NCBI RefSeq assembly: GCF_008035925.1
Contig: NZ_CP036264.1
Location: forward strand, 2,019,409-2,083,408
DNA from: Stieleria maiorica
GTDB lineage: Bacteria; Planctomycetota; Planctomycetia; Pirellulales; Pirellulaceae
Direction of reading: 5' to 3'
Length of the DNA: 64,000 bases
Shown here: piece after piece, positions 27,857 through 37,451 of the stretch
Numbering within the stretch: the stretch's first letter is position 1
How the letters are laid out: each line of letters begins with the position of its first letter
Notes under the pieces: model-generated
Told to the model about the DNA's origin: nothing
Seen by the model: only the letters and a program-made list of their open reading frames with translations
Database searches by the model: none
Made by a program: the position numbers and the translations under genes

Positions 27857-28768
27857 CTATTGGTCCGATCGATCGCGATCCACTGCGGTGAGAAACTGGT
27901 CGATCAATCCTTCGGGGGCTTTGACGATGTGCTGGGGGCCGGGAAACCTTCCGTTTTTGACATCGTCGATGTAGTCCCGAAACCCTCCCACGCGCTCGGC
28001 CTGGATCTCCTGCTCCATCTTGTACAGGTTTCGATACTGTTTGGTGTGTCGTGGAAAGGGAGGGGCGTGATTTCCCAAGATGTCTTCGGCGAACATGAAT
28101 TGAATGTCGCCACCGCTGCCGGCGCCGATCGACGAGGTCACCAGACGCGTGCGGGTGGAGATTTCCGCGAGCAACTCGGCCGGAACGACTTCGACTTCGA
28201 CCGCCCATGCGCCTGCTTCTTCGAACGAGCGTATCTGCTGGAAAACCCAGAGCGCCTGTTCAATGGTCTTGCCGACCGCCCTCAGGCCTCCCGTCCAGGT
28301 GCTCAACCGCGGCACCAGACCGGCGTGCGCTTCCACGGGGATCCCCGCGTCCGAAACGGCTCGAATGAAATCCGGTCCCCATTGGCACATGATCCCATCG
28401 GCGCCCAGTTCCATCGCGTCATAGCCGGCACGGACCGCTTCGGCCGCGGTGGTGATCTTGGTCAGCCCGATACAGAACGTCATGAAGGTGTTCGGCGCCG
28501 CATTTCGGATCGCAACGGCGTCGGCCGGATTCGCTGGATCAAACTTGACTTTCAGCGTATCGATCCCGGCCTCTTCCGCCGCCGCCGCCTCGCGGGTCGT
28601 GAAGGGCATCGTCTCGGTAAGAACCGTTTTCCCCTTCAAGTCTTGAAGGTGCTTGATCGTGTGGTTGCGAGTCGCATACGCCCCGCCCAGGGTCATGGTC
28701 CGGTGCAATCCTCGCTTGTGGGCATCTCGCGGAGGCAATGCGTTGGAAGGGGTGCCGTCAGATTTCAT
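27857..28768 (-). CDS. PanB-like (ketopantoate hydroxymethyltransferase family) enzyme
   Basis: 303 residues, longer than typical PanB (about 264). The TIM-barrel signatures align with PanB: GIPVEAHAGLVPRL (PanB GIPVMGHLGLTPQ), EEAGAWAVEVEVVPAELLAE with the catalytic-type Glu before VP, and SSIGAGSGGDIQFMF (PanB GIGAGPDCDGQ). The N-terminal third diverges from PanB, without the usual metal-binding D-D-E set at clear positions, so the standard ketopantoate reaction is not assured. Related enzymes include phosphoenolpyruvate mutase/isocitrate lyase superfamily aldolases. It is monocistronic, next to a tandem repeat. Best call: PanB-like aldolase of unconfirmed substrate. Confidence 0.72.
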   Translation of the reverse strand: MKSDGTPSNALPPRDAHKRGLHRTMTLGGAYATRNHTIKHLQDLKGKTVLTETMPFTTREAAAAEEAGIDTLKVKFDPANPADAVAIRNAAPNTFMTFCIGLTKITTAAEAVRAGYDAMELGADGIMCQWGPDFIRAVSDAGIPVEAHAGLVPRLSTWTGGLRAVGKTIEQALWVFQQIRSFEEAGAWAVEVEVVPAELLAEISTRTRLVTSSIGAGSGGDIQFMFAEDILGNHAPPFPRHTKQYRNLYKMEQEIQAERVGGFRDYIDDVKNGRFPGPQHIVKAPEGLIDQFLTAVDRDRSDQ

Positions 28769-28893
28769 AGGATTCGTTTGCTGTATTGAAGAGTTGGTAT
28801 TTCGCCCCGGGCGGATTCACTTGACAGCACCAATTGACTTTGAATTGATGCCAACGACAAGATCGGCAGGATCGGGATGACGTAAAGGGTCAA

Positions 28894-29005
28894 AACGATG
28901 GGGGCAGAACGATGGGGGCAGAACGATGGGGGCAGAACGATGGGGGCAGAACGATGGGGGCAGAACGATGGGGGCAGGGCGATGGGGGCAGGGCGATGGG
29001 GGCAG
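28894..29005. repeat. 14-bp tandem repeat, eight units
   Basis: Six perfect AACGATGGGGGCAG units (28894-28977) and two GGCGATGGGGGCAG units (28978-29005), without spacers. The unit resembles the GGCAGAATGATG element scattered at 17232, 37243, 42238 and 58387. Predicted proteins across it are only Pro-rich artefacts, so it is non-coding. It lies between the PanB-like and AGCS genes. Confidence 0.9.
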
Positions 29006-29076
29006 GCCGATCGCCAACTGAAATTGTTTTGCCCCCATTGTTTTGCCATTTCTTGGCAGGTGGGGCATGCGAAAGG

Positions 29077-29163
29077 GGTAGGAAGGTTTTGGAGGTAAGA
29101 AAAAGACTTCTGCGTCGACTCGGGTTTCTCCCTCATTGTCTTACCCCAAAAAATCTTCCTACC
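29077..29163. repeat. MITE-like inverted repeat, GGTAGGAAGRTTTTGGAGGT family, copy 1
   Basis: The left end, GGTAGGAAGGTTTTGGAGGT, and the right end, a close inverse with AAAAATCTTCCTACC, enclose about 45 unrelated bases. Similar elements occur at 38971-39058 and 42094-42184 (reverse). The right part of the gap to 29311 has no other feature. Confidence 0.7.
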
Positions 29164-29311
29164 AGCGTTTTCATGATGCTCTCTCGATTCGTGTAAGCTA
29201 TCTCGATCGCTAACCAATCGAAAACGATTCAATCAACAAGCCGTCAATTGTCTGGTCAGCCGATCGCTGTGCGGGAGGGGGTGATGGACAGGGGAACGAA
29301 GGGATGAAGCC

Positions 29312-31078
29312 ATGACGGACAGCCTGCTGTTAAGTTCCTTCGAGTTTCTCGATCCGGTCAACGAGATCCTTTGGGGGCCTTGGACTCCGTATGCGTTGCT
29401 CGCCGCGGGCGTCCTGTTCACCGTCTGGACCCGGTTCATTCAGTGGACCGTGGTGACACATGGTGTGGATGTGATTCGCGGCCGCTATGACAACCCGAGT
29501 GACCCGGGGGCGATCAATCACTTCCAAGCGCTTTCGGCAGCGCTTTCGGCGACGGTCGGCTTGGGAAACATCGGAGGCGTCGCGCTCGCGGTGGGCACGG
29601 GCGGCCCCGGCGCTCTTTTTTGGATGTGGGTCGTCGGTGTGATCGGGATGGCGCTGAAAGCCGTCGAAATCACACTCGCGATGCTGTATCGAAAGACGGA
29701 CGATCCGGAAAATCCGTCAGGCGGCGCGATGTGGGTCGTCGAGCAAGTGCTGGGCAGCAAGGGGGGAATCTGGAAAGTCATCGGCCGAACGTGCGGCGTC
29801 TTCTTTTGCATCACCCTTGTCATCGCCACGTTCACCAACGGAAACATGTTCCAGGCGTGGAGTGTTGCCGAATTGACTGAGCGACACTTTGGCGTCCCAA
29901 AACTTTCCACCGGCATTGCCATGGCCCTGATCGTGGGCCTGGTGATCGTCGGGGGCATCAAACGGATCGGTAGCGTCGCTGGGACACTGGTCCCTGTGAT
30001 GTGCCTGATGTACTTGGTTTCTGCGTTCGTCGTCTTGGCGATTCACGTCACGGACATCCCGTCACTTTTGATGACCGTCATCCGATCCGCGTTCCAGCCG
30101 ACCGAAGCGGTCGGGGCGTTCGTCGGCGGTACGGCCGGATGGGGATTCATCCAAGGGATGAAGCGGGCGTTTTTCTCCAACGAAGCCGGCCTGGGATCCG
30201 CGCCGATCGCCCACGCGGCCGCAAAGACCAGCGAAGCGGCGCGTGAAGGAATCGTCGGCGGCCTCGGACCGTTCATCGACACGCTTTGCATTTGTACGCT
30301 GACAGGTTTGGTCATCCTGTGCACCGGCACATGGAATCGTGAACCGATCGGCGAGTGCGCGAAACCGCTTTCCGTCGAAAAGACCGCTCAACGCGGGGAA
30401 GACACGGTCGTCACGTTTTCGGTTGACTCGGCCGCGGAGCCGGAGGATCTGCCGACGGACGAATCGGGGGCGTGGGCTGTCGGCGACCGATTCTTTGTCG
30501 TCGGCGATGCGGGCGATGCGAATCAGCGCGAAACGGGAAGCTCGCGGGTGAAGTTTTTTGGCGAGATCACCCACGGCCAAGAACCTTCCATCACATGGGA
30601 ACCGCTCTCGGTCGATCCGCGCGATTGGGATGGCAGGCTCGGTGAGATCACGATCGTGTCGGCCGCCGTTTATCGCGACTATGCCGGTGCCGAGCTGACC
30701 GCATTTGCTTTCGACCGCGAATTCCCGGGGCTCGGCGGCTGGTTGGTACCGCTCGCCGCGTGGCTGTTCGCAATTTCATCGATGATTTCTTGGAGCTACT
30801 ACGGCGAACAAGGGATGATCTACCTGCTGGGCCGGCAAAGTGTGTTGCCTTTTAAATTCGTGTTCTTGGCCGGTGCGGTTTACGCCGCCAATTGGATCGA
30901 GAACGCCGACGAAATGGTGAAGCTGATGGATCTCGGCACCGGCGCCATGCTCTGGTCCAATATCCCCATCGTGCTGGCGCTGGGTTATCTCGCTGTCGGA
31001 TCGCTCAGTGACTATCGAAGGAAACTCGCCGAGGGAAAATTCAAACGTCACGATGAAGCCCAAGGGTCGCGGGAATAA
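29312..31078 (+). CDS. AGCS-family alanine/glycine:cation symporter with an inserted domain
   Basis: 588 residues, about 130 longer than typical AGCS carriers. The start ATG at 29312 has AGGGATGAAGCC upstream. Family landmarks are LSATVGLGNIGGVALAVGTG near residue 80, GGAMWVVEQVLGSKGG and KRAFFSNEAGLGSAPIAHAA near 285. These carriers move alanine, glycine or related amino acids with Na+ or H+. Between about residue 340 and 465 lies a polar stretch without helices (ERGEDTV-like, many Asp/Glu), after which helices resume at FPGLGGWLVPLAAWLF. The insert is presumably on one face of the membrane. A kinase gene with an amide-binding domain follows on the same strand after 205 bases. Confidence 0.92.
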   Translation: MTDSLLLSSFEFLDPVNEILWGPWTPYALLAAGVLFTVWTRFIQWTVVTHGVDVIRGRYDNPSDPGAINHFQALSAALSATVGLGNIGGVALAVGTGGPGALFWMWVVGVIGMALKAVEITLAMLYRKTDDPENPSGGAMWVVEQVLGSKGGIWKVIGRTCGVFFCITLVIATFTNGNMFQAWSVAELTERHFGVPKLSTGIAMALIVGLVIVGGIKRIGSVAGTLVPVMCLMYLVSAFVVLAIHVTDIPSLLMTVIRSAFQPTEAVGAFVGGTAGWGFIQGMKRAFFSNEAGLGSAPIAHAAAKTSEAAREGIVGGLGPFIDTLCICTLTGLVILCTGTWNREPIGECAKPLSVEKTAQRGEDTVVTFSVDSAAEPEDLPTDESGAWAVGDRFFVVGDAGDANQRETGSSRVKFFGEITHGQEPSITWEPLSVDPRDWDGRLGEITIVSAAVYRDYAGAELTAFAFDREFPGLGGWLVPLAAWLFAISSMISWSYYGEQGMIYLLGRQSVLPFKFVFLAGAVYAANWIENADEMVKLMDLGTGAMLWSNIPIVLALGYLAVGSLSDYRRKLAEGKFKRHDEAQGSRE

Positions 31079-31170: not shown

Positions 31171-31272
31171 GACGTCGTCTCAGCGAGACGGAAACGTTCG
31201 CAGCTGTGACGACAACATGTTGGCCCGCCGATCGAATAGAATAGCAATCGGGATAGAAAAGTCGTCATGCGA

Positions 31273-31283: not shown

Positions 31284-34103
31284 GTGGTCGCTCCCGATTC
31301 AGCCGCACCGTATTCCGTCGGGATTCTCCATTCGCTTAGCGGTGTCCTTGCCGGCGGAGAGTCGCTCGTGGCCGAAGCGACCAAATTGGCGATCGACGAA
31401 ATCAACGCTTCCGGCGGCATACTGGGGCGCAAGATCGTCGCTCGGGTCCGTGACGGCGCCTCCGATGCCGAAACCTTCGCCGAGCAGGCCAGACGATTTT
31501 TGGAAGACGATCAGATCCGAGTGATCTTTGGGTGTTGGACGTCCGCTTCTCGAAAAGCGCTGCTGCCGATTCTCTCGCGGCGAAACGGATTGCTGTTTTA
31601 TCCACTTCAGTACGAGGGGCTGGAAGAAAGCGAGAACGTGATCTACACCGGCAGCACGCTGAACCAACAAATCGAGCCGGCCGTCGATTGGGCGATGGAT
31701 CGCGGATGGCGCGACGCGGCCATCGTCGGGTCCGATTACGTGTATCCGCGGACCGCGAACACGCTGATGCACGGCATTCTGGAAAAACGCGGGGGCCGCG
31801 TTGTGAAGGAATGTTACGTGCCGCTGGAAGATTATGACGTTGCCCCAGTGATCGAAGAGATTCTGGCCGCTAAACCCGACGTGATCTACAACACGATCAA
31901 TGGCGCGGCCAACGCTGATTTTTTTCGGATGCTTTCCCAGCGAGGTCCGGGACCGGACGAATTGCCGGTCCTCTCGTTCAGCTTTTCCGAAACCGAACTG
32001 GCCGCCGTCCCCGAAGCGGTCGGCCACTATGCCTGCTGGGACTATTTTTCGACATGTGTGAGTGAGATCAACCAGCATTTTTTACCGCGGATGCGGGAGC
32101 ACATGGGATACGAGTGCCCGGTGTCATCGCCGATGGCAAACGCCTACACGCAAGTGTACCTCTGGAAAGCGATGGTCGAACAAATGGAAAGCTTTGACCC
32201 CGCCGATCTGGAAAACCACAGTTTCATCCTGGTCAATGGCCCTTGCGGCGTGATGGAACTACGCCGCAACCGACATGTTCGTAAGCGAGCCATGGTGGGC
32301 CGGGCAACGGAGCGCGGTGAGTTTGACATCGTTTGGCAATTCCCCGAAATGATCGACCCCGAACCGTGGTTCGGGGTCGATACCCTGCTTCGCGGCCGAA
32401 TCATCCACCAGGCACTCGAAGCGTTTCCCACCGTTGTGGATCTGCACGCAACGCTCAGAAGGGAAAAGGAGATCCAGGAAAAGCTGATCGAAGAACTGAA
32501 CGCAAAACAGGTGGAATTGGAAAAGGCCCGCGATGCGGCCGAAGCGGCCAACGAAGCGAAATCCGATTTCCTGGCGGCGATGAGCCACGAAATCCGCACA
32601 CCGATGAACGGCATCCTCGGGATGGCGCAGTTGCTGGGCGATGGCCCACTTTCAGCCACCCAATCCGAGCAGCTTGCGATCATCCTCTCGTCCGGCGAAT
32701 CCTTGCTCAGGATCATCAACGACATCCTGGATTTTTCAAAGATTAATGCCGGCAAGGTGGAACTGGAAAACATCGGTTTTTCGTTCCACGACCTGGTCAG
32801 CGAGACGCTCCAGTTGCTGTCGCCCAAGGCTCACGAACGCGGCATGGAAATCGAGTTGGATATCGATCTGAAGATGCCCGATATCCGTTCCGGGGACCCG
32901 ACGCGGATCCGCCAGGTGTTGACGAATTTGGTCACCAACGCGATCAAGTTCACCGAGAACGGCCGGATCGTTGTCGTTGCTCGACCGGACCTGGAATCAC
33001 CGGAACAAATCTGTTTGGAGGTCAAGGACACCGGAATCGGGATCTCCCCGGAAGCACAAAAGCGATTGTTTCAGCCGTTTGTCCAGGCTGATTCTGGGAC
33101 AACGCGCAAGTATGGTGGGACGGGGTTGGGACTGGTAATCTGTCGGCGGTTGGTGGAACGCATGGGGGGCACGTTGACGCTGGAAAGCGAAGTCGGCAGT
33201 GGCACAACCTTCACCGCCACATTGCCGATCCCGCCGACGGATAAGATCGATGTGGGCGCATCGATTCATCAATCCGAACCGCCCAAGGACTCGCTGGTCG
33301 GAAAACGCGTGTTGCTGGTCGATGACAACGCGATCAATCGTCGCGTGGCCAAGGGGTTACTGGAAGGTTTTGGGATCGTTGTCGACGCGGCGACCGGCGC
33401 AGATGATGTCAAACAACGCGTGCAACGCGATCCGGATTGTTTGCACGACCACGACGGGATGATCGTCGACGCCATGATGCCGGGGACGGATGGCTGGCAA
33501 CTGGCACGCTGGATTCGCGAGCAGCGGTACGGCAAGGAGATCGCGCTGATTCTTGCTTCATCGGCGATCGGTAGCGAAGAAGGTCACTCGGCGGCGGAGG
33601 CGGAATTGTTTTCGGTCGTGCTGCCAAAGCCGCTGCGACGCGGAACACTGTTTCGTGCGTTGGCGGTCGCGTTGGCCAACTGGAGTCCTCCCCAAGCCTC
33701 CACTCGCCAACAGCAAGTCCAGTCGCGACGCATCCTTGTGGCCGAAGACAGCATCGTTAATCAAGCCGTTGCTCGGTCAATCCTCGAACAAGAAGGACAC
33801 GACGTTACGATCGCAGAAAACGGCCAAGTGGCGCTGGACGCACTGACGGACGCCGACGCGTTTGATCTGATCCTGATGGACGTGCAAATGCCGGAACTGG
33901 ACGGATTGGAAGCCACCCGCCGAATACGCAAACGCGAGCAGGACAACGGTTGGCCGCGATGGCCCATCATGGCACTCTCGGGAAACGCGATGAAAGAGGA
34001 ACAGGACGCTTGCCTGGACGCCGGCATGGACGGCTGTCTGACCAAACCGATGAACATGAACGAAGTCTTGGCCCTGGTCGCCGCGACGCCTCGGCGCGAG
34101 TGA
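31284..34103 (+). CDS. Soluble hybrid histidine kinase with UrtA/AmiC-like binding domain and two receiver domains
   Basis: 939 residues. Residues about 8-395 match the urea/short-chain-amide binding proteins (UrtA, FmdD, AmiC): [65 protein letters not shown] and [16 protein letters not shown] coiled-coil (about 395-430) leads to the H-box [15 protein letters not shown] near 430, an HATPase domain with [11 protein letters not shown] and [19 protein letters not shown], then two receivers, [18 protein letters not shown] and [18 protein letters not shown], with phospho-Asp sites in [13 protein letters not shown] and [13 protein letters not shown]. No signal or transmembrane helix is visible, so sensing should be cytoplasmic. 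It probably senses imported amides, urea or amino acids; the adjacent AGCS carrier supports this only by position. Confidence 0.9.
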
Positions 34104-36314: not shown

Positions 36315-37184
36315 TTATCGGTCGGCCACCTGAGCATTGATCCAGTCCAAGAGACTCTGCAAGTAGGCTTCACGCTGGATGTCTTGGTGCAGGTCGTGCG
36401 CCCCATCGGGCCAGATTTGCATGCTCGCGCGGCCGTGGGAGTTTTCCACGAATTCAACCGACGCCCGGTGGCAGGTGATCACGTCGGCATCCCCGTGCGG
36501 CACCAACGTCGGCGTCGAAAGCGCCGTGGCATGCTCGATCGCCCAGCGTCCCGAGTCGATCAAATCCCGCCCCAGTCGCAAGCTGACCTGCTGTTGCACG
36601 AGCGGGTCGTCCAGAAACTCGCGTTGCTTCTCGGGATCGCGACTGATATCCGCCGGATCGACCGGTTTGTCCAACAGACGATCCGGAGTCAGGTGCGATA
36701 ACAACCGAAGCAGCGCCAGGCGGATCGGGCCGGGCGGGTTGACCGCTCGCAACATCGGAGAGGCTGCGACCACCCAATCCATCGGGGAGTAACCGCGCAG
36801 CTGATGATTCAACACAAGGTTGCCGCCCATGCTGGGACCCAAAAAACCGACCGATGCATCCCGATGCAACTCTCTCAGCCGGCTCAAGAATGAGTCGATG
36901 TCCTGCAACAGCGATTCATAGCTTGGGATCAGCATCCGCCGGCCGGGAGTCTTGCCGTGTCCACACTGGTCGTAGGCATAGACGTGGACTCCGCGACTGG
37001 CGAACCAGCGTCCCGTCTCATCAAACCGCCCCGAGTGATCTCCCAGACCATGAACCACTCCCATGACGATTTCGCGTTGAAGTGATGACGATGGGGAATC
37101 GGGTGCCAGCCAGGACCGCACGAAACGATCGTGATGCCCCAGCGTCCACGTTTGCTCGCTGCAGTTCAATTCGCTTGCGTGCAT
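36315..37184 (-). CDS. Alpha/beta hydrolase, monoacylglycerol-lipase-like
   Basis: 289 residues, no signal peptide. The catalytic elbow is GPSMGG (G-x-S-x-G), preceded by VHGLGDHSGRFDETGRW, which matches the HG motif of serine aminopeptidase S33/lysophospholipases. The acid/base partners are in PHGDADVITCHRAS and DGAHDLHQD. The pattern YAYDQCGHGKTPGRR near residue 70 is the monoglyceride lipase-type signature. Hydrolysis of short or long acyl esters is inferred. It is flanked by dispersed repeats and is probably a single-gene transcript. Confidence 0.88.
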   Translation of the reverse strand: MHASELNCSEQTWTLGHHDRFVRSWLAPDSPSSSLQREIVMGVVHGLGDHSGRFDETGRWFASRGVHVYAYDQCGHGKTPGRRMLIPSYESLLQDIDSFLSRLRELHRDASVGFLGPSMGGNLVLNHQLRGYSPMDWVVAASPMLRAVNPPGPIRLALLRLLSHLTPDRLLDKPVDPADISRDPEKQREFLDDPLVQQQVSLRLGRDLIDSGRWAIEHATALSTPTLVPHGDADVITCHRASVEFVENSHGRASMQIWPDGAHDLHQDIQREAYLQSLLDWINAQVADR

Positions 37185-37242
37185 GTCGGCCGGTCCTTGG
37201 GGATTTCAATCCGGGCGTCGGGTGGATGGTGGATGGTAGGGA

Positions 37243-37330
37243 CGGGGCAAAACGATGGGGGCAAAACGATGGGACAGAAGGAAGGCAGAATAATGGAAGG
37301 CAGAATGATGGGGGGCAGAATGATGGGGGC
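37243..37330. repeat. Degenerate tandem repeat of the GGCAGAATGATG / ACGATGGGGGCAG family
   Basis: GGGGCAAAACGATGGGGGC with AAAACGATGGG, then GGAAGGCAGAATAATGG and GGCAGAATGATGG units, about six imperfect units. It lies between the start of the alpha/beta hydrolase and the 3' end of the propeller gene. A related, cleaner array is at 28894-29005. Confidence 0.7.
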
Positions 37331-37451
37331 GGGAGCGAAGGATGCTTCACCGCCAATGGAATCAATCGCTTTTGATTCCAGCCCGAAGCGCGAGCGAGTG
37401 GATCTGCTGCTCCTCTTGCTCGCGCCGTGGCACTCGTAAATCAACAGGCCG

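Follow-up and report, generated by a model that had tools for sequence, protein, structure and literature searches.

AmiC of Pseudomonas aeruginosa is a cytoplasmic amide receptor that acts by holding AmiR and not as part of a kinase. A second member of the same fold is UrtA, which binds urea in the periplasm for the urea ABC transporter: in P. marinus UrtA, nine residues lie near urea and mutation of eight of them lowers or abolishes binding, F192 mattering little (PMC10392092). Given that binding-protein Pfam families, PF13433 among them, also act as the sensory part of signalling proteins, both cytosolic and membrane ones (PMC9602780), and that one Peripla_BP_5 chemoreceptor cluster is on record (PMC8547431), the general idea of binding-protein domains as signalling sensors is already known. 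S-helix linkers ahead of kinases have also been described (PMC1592074). Among titles and opening lines of abstracts in the open-access papers searched, we found no paper on a cytoplasmic or soluble histidine kinase of the UrtA type.

The gene analysed here occupies positions 31284..34103 (+ strand) of the window, by which we mean the whole 64,000-nucleotide stretch of Stieleria maiorica DNA examined, and by open reading frame and Pfam it encodes a 939-residue hybrid histidine kinase with a GTG start and an N-terminal UrtA-like sensor. The sensor spans residues ~9-365 (31308..32378, +) as delimited by Pfam, pocket alignment, AlphaFold2 and Foldseek, the Peripla_BP_5 match itself covering residues 11-363 at 393 bits against a cut-off of 27. 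There follow a linker (residues 366-424; 32379..32555, +), the HisKA or DHp domain (425-490; 32556..32753, +), HATPase_c (537-650; 32892..33233, +) and two Response_reg stretches (33306..33653 and 33732..34079, both +). By Pfam and motif inspection the catalytic residues are intact, namely the phospho-acceptor H435, the motifs that we take to be the N, G1 and G2 boxes, and the pairs D729/K782 and D866/K921 of the first and second receivers. The protein thus has the HisKA, HATPase_c, receivers and catalytic residues of a hybrid histidine kinase. Pfam bears out the domain order proposed in an earlier note on this DNA, made from the letters alone, and shortens its binding domain from about 390 to about 355 residues; the fusion of a UrtA-type domain to a soluble hybrid kinase is confirmed. 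Hybrid kinases of the BarA/TorS type carry the same HisKA, HATPase_c and two receivers; here, by contrast, a UrtA clamshell does the sensing and membrane segments are absent.

The reading frame leaves no room for a signal peptide, because an in-frame TAG (31254..31256, +) blocks it ten codons ahead of the GTG and hydropathy reveals no membrane segment. The nine intervening codons (AAA AGT CGT CAT GCG AAA AGG CTT GCC) include no ATG, GTG or TTG, which bears out the in-frame stop already reported and rules out a missed upstream start. By hydropathy the N-terminus lacks a hydrophobic stretch, and the highest 19-residue Kyte-Doolittle mean of the whole protein, 1.34, falls inside the DHp region; hydropathy and the AlphaFold2 model together rule out a membrane segment between sensor and kinase. 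The signal peptide or lipoprotein signal typical of UrtA is accordingly missing, and the protein resembles AmiC, a family member without signal peptide that acts as a sensor inside the cell.

The relatives agree. In six of the seven planctomycete members, that of the window among them, a stop lies no more than 16 codons from the first start, and the N-terminus is short and polar. In the seventh, from the sister species (G721), the frame stays open 68 codons further upstream with no hydrophobic stretch, the peak 19-residue mean there being 0.94. None of the six members other than the window's has a hydrophobic N-terminus by hydropathy, and in two of them (L121 and L122) GGAGG-type ribosome sites lie directly ahead of the short polar N-termini. 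The UrtA-type domain of the window kinase is therefore apparently cytoplasmic as judged from sequence, in support of the earlier proposal of a soluble one-protein sensor; neither of the two findings named beforehand as fatal to that proposal, an upstream start or an inter-domain membrane segment, turned up.

An AlphaFold2 model of residues 1-510, built from 36 sequences, places the binding domain ahead of a single long helix (residues 382-452) that contains most of the linker and runs into the DHp domain. Mean pLDDT is 84.7, with ten-residue block means of 79 to 98 over residues 11-360 and of only 50 to 52 at the sensor-linker junction (361-390), so that the start of the helix is of low confidence. 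Between the window and the sister species the linker has accumulated 19 synonymous differences and no non-synonymous one. The distance from an FP motif to the H-box is 44 residues in all four members of the window's subfamily and 37 in all three of the other (L121, L122 and L141), a gap of exactly 7 residues, or one heptad. With one continuous predicted helix and a heptad-sized length difference, the linker may be a parallel coiled coil of the S-helix type; the difference is as expected if coiled-coil register matters.

The sensor pocket is most like that of urea-binding proteins. All eight of the urea-binding residues of P. marinus UrtA have identical equivalents in the window sensor (W85, S87, Y106, Q109, E111, Y152, N206 and S233), and F192 corresponds to Y154. 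The top Foldseek matches are the urea-binding 8tg1 and the UrtA structures 8hic, 7s6e and 7s6f, with the same fold and 40-42% identity in the Foldseek alignments, ahead of AmiC (1pea, 1qnl and 1qo0), which has the same fold at 30% identity. The eight contact residues are also kept in 7/7 planctomycete kinase fusions. The window sensor nonetheless differs from transporter UrtA: in addition to lacking a signal peptide it is fused to a kinase, has no urtBCDE among its neighbouring genes, and scores 392 bits against the NCBIfam UrtA model TIGR03407, below the cut-off of 492.75.

The meaning of the signature was gauged with 197 distinct domains of UrtA type from the fetched loci, a few of which overlap, sorted by the presence of urtB or of the formamidase gene fmdA in the same locus. 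With a urtB query that may catch related permeases, the full signature occurs in 58 of the 63 domains that have a urtB homologue and no fmdA; of the five exceptions, four carry H, L, V and L or M at four positions and one carries F and V. Both domains with urtB and fmdA depart at two pocket positions (Q to F, N to V). Where neither gene lies in the locus, which given varying flank lengths is not proof of absence, 95 of 132 domains carry the full signature. Counted by architecture over 196 domains, it is present in 13/13 kinase fusions caught by the histidine-kinase query, 36/52 Ser/Thr-kinase fusions and 103/131 others, the last class including a kinase relative overlooked by that query (L183) that has lost three of the eight residues. 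The pocket is thus predicted to be urea-type rather than amide-type.

On balance, we favour the reading that this soluble hybrid kinase binds urea or a very close analogue in the cytoplasm through its UrtA-type clamshell. In the mechanism that we infer, including its ligand, the direction of its switch, its phosphorelay partners and its target genes, closure of the clamshell on the ligand would be relayed along the helical linker to the DHp helices in the dimeric kinase and alter autophosphorylation at H435; phosphate could then move to the receivers (D729, D866), to an unlinked Hpt protein and on to a response regulator encoded at another place in the genome. Urea crosses membranes, and a cytoplasmic urea sensor thus needs no importer. 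If the protein does bind urea, a single polypeptide would serve as a two-component sensor of cytoplasmic urea, and it would clearly exemplify how a transport binding protein can be relocated into the cell to work as a receptor.

Unlikely, in our estimate, is that the same soluble kinase reads a short amide such as formamide or acetamide, as AmiC does. The window sensor does match AmiC in sequence and structure, and the earlier note had called its binding domain amide-binding. Yet four of the eight signature positions differ in AmiC (W85 to Y, Q109 to P, N206 to V and S233 to T) and two in both formamidase-linked relatives, against none in the window sensor; FmdA/AmdA is also unmatched in the window's genome. 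The amide label is consequently the less likely one. Among seven neighbouring genes given to Pfam, one of which had no Pfam match, and the AGCS carrier beside the kinase, no AmiR/amidase operon was seen.

It seems more doubtful again that the clamshell has lost small-ligand binding and acts instead in dimerisation or in contacts with proteins. The host's gene content lends this some weight, since no urea gene was found in the window's genome by searches for urease alpha (profile search), the arginase/agmatinase family, urea carboxylase or AmiS/UreI. Urease alpha matches did appear in 7 of 18 genomes (G721, G219 and G458 among them), but these cover only 43 to 54 profile positions and score 22 to 27 bits, close to the threshold of 23, within frames of at least 950 residues, and we read them as other amidohydrolases. 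Urea carboxylase was below cut-off in 6/6 genomes, the window's included, and the AmiS/UreI search had a weak control (one of 14 control genomes matched, none over the cut-off). The loss of pocket residues in the close relative L183 further shows that the pocket can change. Against this stands the retention of all eight contact residues in every planctomycete kinase fusion, despite only 43-45% identity between the two subfamilies over sensor plus linker. Under the favoured reading of a urea-type sensor, the ligand could be a cue or a urea analogue, as no urea-using gene was found in this genome, and urea binding by a protein whose genome lacks a recognised urea pathway would make one ask what message urea carries in planctomycetes.

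A urea ABC transporter was also considered for the window's genome and rejected: there is no free UrtA, both Peripla_BP_5 matches being fused, and of three permease-family genes elsewhere in the genome the one typed is sugar-type.

That the kinase instead reads an amino acid imported by the adjoining AGCS carrier, as the earlier note had suggested, is highly improbable, for although the carrier lies directly upstream in both the window and the sister genome G721, it is unseen in the fetched flanks of the other five of six kinase loci compared, two (G722 and G723) of the four carrier-bearing genomes among 14 of the genus lack a histidine-kinase fusion, and urea-binding proteins supply both the pattern of pocket residues and the top structural matches; we have dropped the carrier as a ligand clue.

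Fusions of this kind are scattered among planctomycetes. Peripla_BP_5 matches (E up to 0.001) occur in 92 of 196 genomes of the order, and among the open reading frames of the 71 loci fetched by then (some overlapping, and part of the places listed in that search) the window's is the sole histidine-kinase fusion, the remainder being Ser/Thr-kinase fusions or frames in which UrtA alone is recognised. With sensor plus linker as query, counting only matches that reached the linker (query residue 406 or beyond), members were found in 4 of 392 genomes of the phylum (the window's own G000, G219, G458 and G482), 4 of 170 genomes of the order of G219 (G219, G711, G482 and G458) and 2 of 14 genomes of the genus (G000 and G721). 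A Planctomycetaceae MAG (L141), taken from the best 80 of at least 595 matches in a named collection, brings the total to at least seven. Over sensor and linker, the other members are 94, 77, 74, 45 and 43% identical to the window protein, and L141 44%. All seven share the window's domain order, L122 with an extra Hpt domain. Compared with the sister species, dN/dS is 0.067 over the gene as a whole, 0.078 within the sensor and 0.040 in the kinase core; this constraint, together with the same architecture in six other planctomycete proteins, indicates that the fusion is more than chance. The scattered presence, and a sensor identity of 77% between members of different orders, would be in keeping with horizontal transfer. 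Base composition was tried as a sign of transfer and is uninformative (GC 0.584 for the gene, 0.599 for the window).

UrtA is also joined to kinases of another type. The other Peripla_BP_5 protein of the window's genome (L001, G000:C1:8846015-8847094) consists of a Ser/Thr kinase, a membrane helix and a C-terminal UrtA, an arrangement common in the planctomycete genomes sampled. Its UrtA domain presumably lies outside the cell, as it is C-terminal and follows a predicted membrane helix in most, though not all, of these open reading frames, which sets them apart from the window kinase. Of 52 such fusions, 16 show changes to the urea pocket, and these are of several kinds, which would suit a diversified ligand specificity. 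One open frame in G463, 1642 residues long, was considered as a giant fusion and set aside: its UrtA part has, by eye, its own signal-peptide-like N-terminus and lies near a formamidase-like gene, and we take it to be a free binding protein whose frame is long by artefact.

Outside the planctomycetes, the best 80 of at least 595 matches include six cyanobacterial kinases (L157, L160, L174, L179, L188 and L194) in which UrtA without signal peptide precedes two hydrophobic segments and then a kinase; Pfam confirmed HAMP, HisKA and HATPase_c in L157, L160 and L194, the three tested. Their two-helix topology would put the N-terminal UrtA on the kinase side of the membrane. A chemoreceptor-like protein of Paenibacillus sabuli (L161:7905-10394) similarly begins with a UrtA domain whose N-terminus is polar and lacks a signal peptide and whose urea pocket is complete; it continues with hydrophobic segments near residues 400 and 433 (means 2.13 and 1.66, in the frame from ATG) and an MCP signalling domain, and is a possible cytoplasmic urea chemoreceptor. 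These cyanobacterial and Paenibacillus proteins thus share with the window kinase a signal-peptide-free N-terminal UrtA and the full urea pocket, and differ in the predicted membrane segments after the sensor. A Synechococcales frame (L183:7884-10217) joins UrtA to a linker that by eye seems related and to a HisKA match that is weak, its 24 bits falling short of the 26.9 cut-off; the frame runs past the stored DNA and its start is uncertain.

In a quick tree of 85 UrtA domains chosen by score (among them 22 of the 52 from Ser/Thr-kinase fusions and 48 of the 127 free ones), limited by its midpoint root and simple model, the planctomycete kinases, all seven, cluster with support 90, and L183 is joined to this cluster (99). 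A second group (99) consists of the six cyanobacterial membrane kinases and joins a free Chloroflexota UrtA (98), and L161 is placed elsewhere (84); L183 and L161 have long branches, and L141 an odd residue make-up. Because the cyanobacterial kinases and L161 sit on separate branches of the UrtA tree, separate recruitment in these kinase and chemoreceptor lines is the likelier reading. A broader proposal, which we offer as a possibility and hold well below the prediction for the window kinase itself, is that UrtA became a receptor inside the cell on at least three occasions (in planctomycete soluble kinases, cyanobacterial membrane kinases and the Paenibacillus chemoreceptor) and would directly read free intracellular urea as a signal and not a nutrient, in some bacteria without a recognisable urea pathway.

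The surroundings of the window kinase are shared with G721 only, among the six other kinase loci compared. Pfam, applied to the seven neighbouring genes and the AGCS gene, identified sulfatases and ferritin besides the carrier, and the sulfatases are weakly similar to genes near L122 and L123. The AGCS carrier (29312-31078, 588 residues) contains a long insertion, its 392-position Pfam profile being spread over residues 63-576. Short open reading frames of repeated SFCPHRSAPIVLPP-like motifs at 28765-29232 and 37021-37365 are probably a repeated non-coding DNA element between genes.
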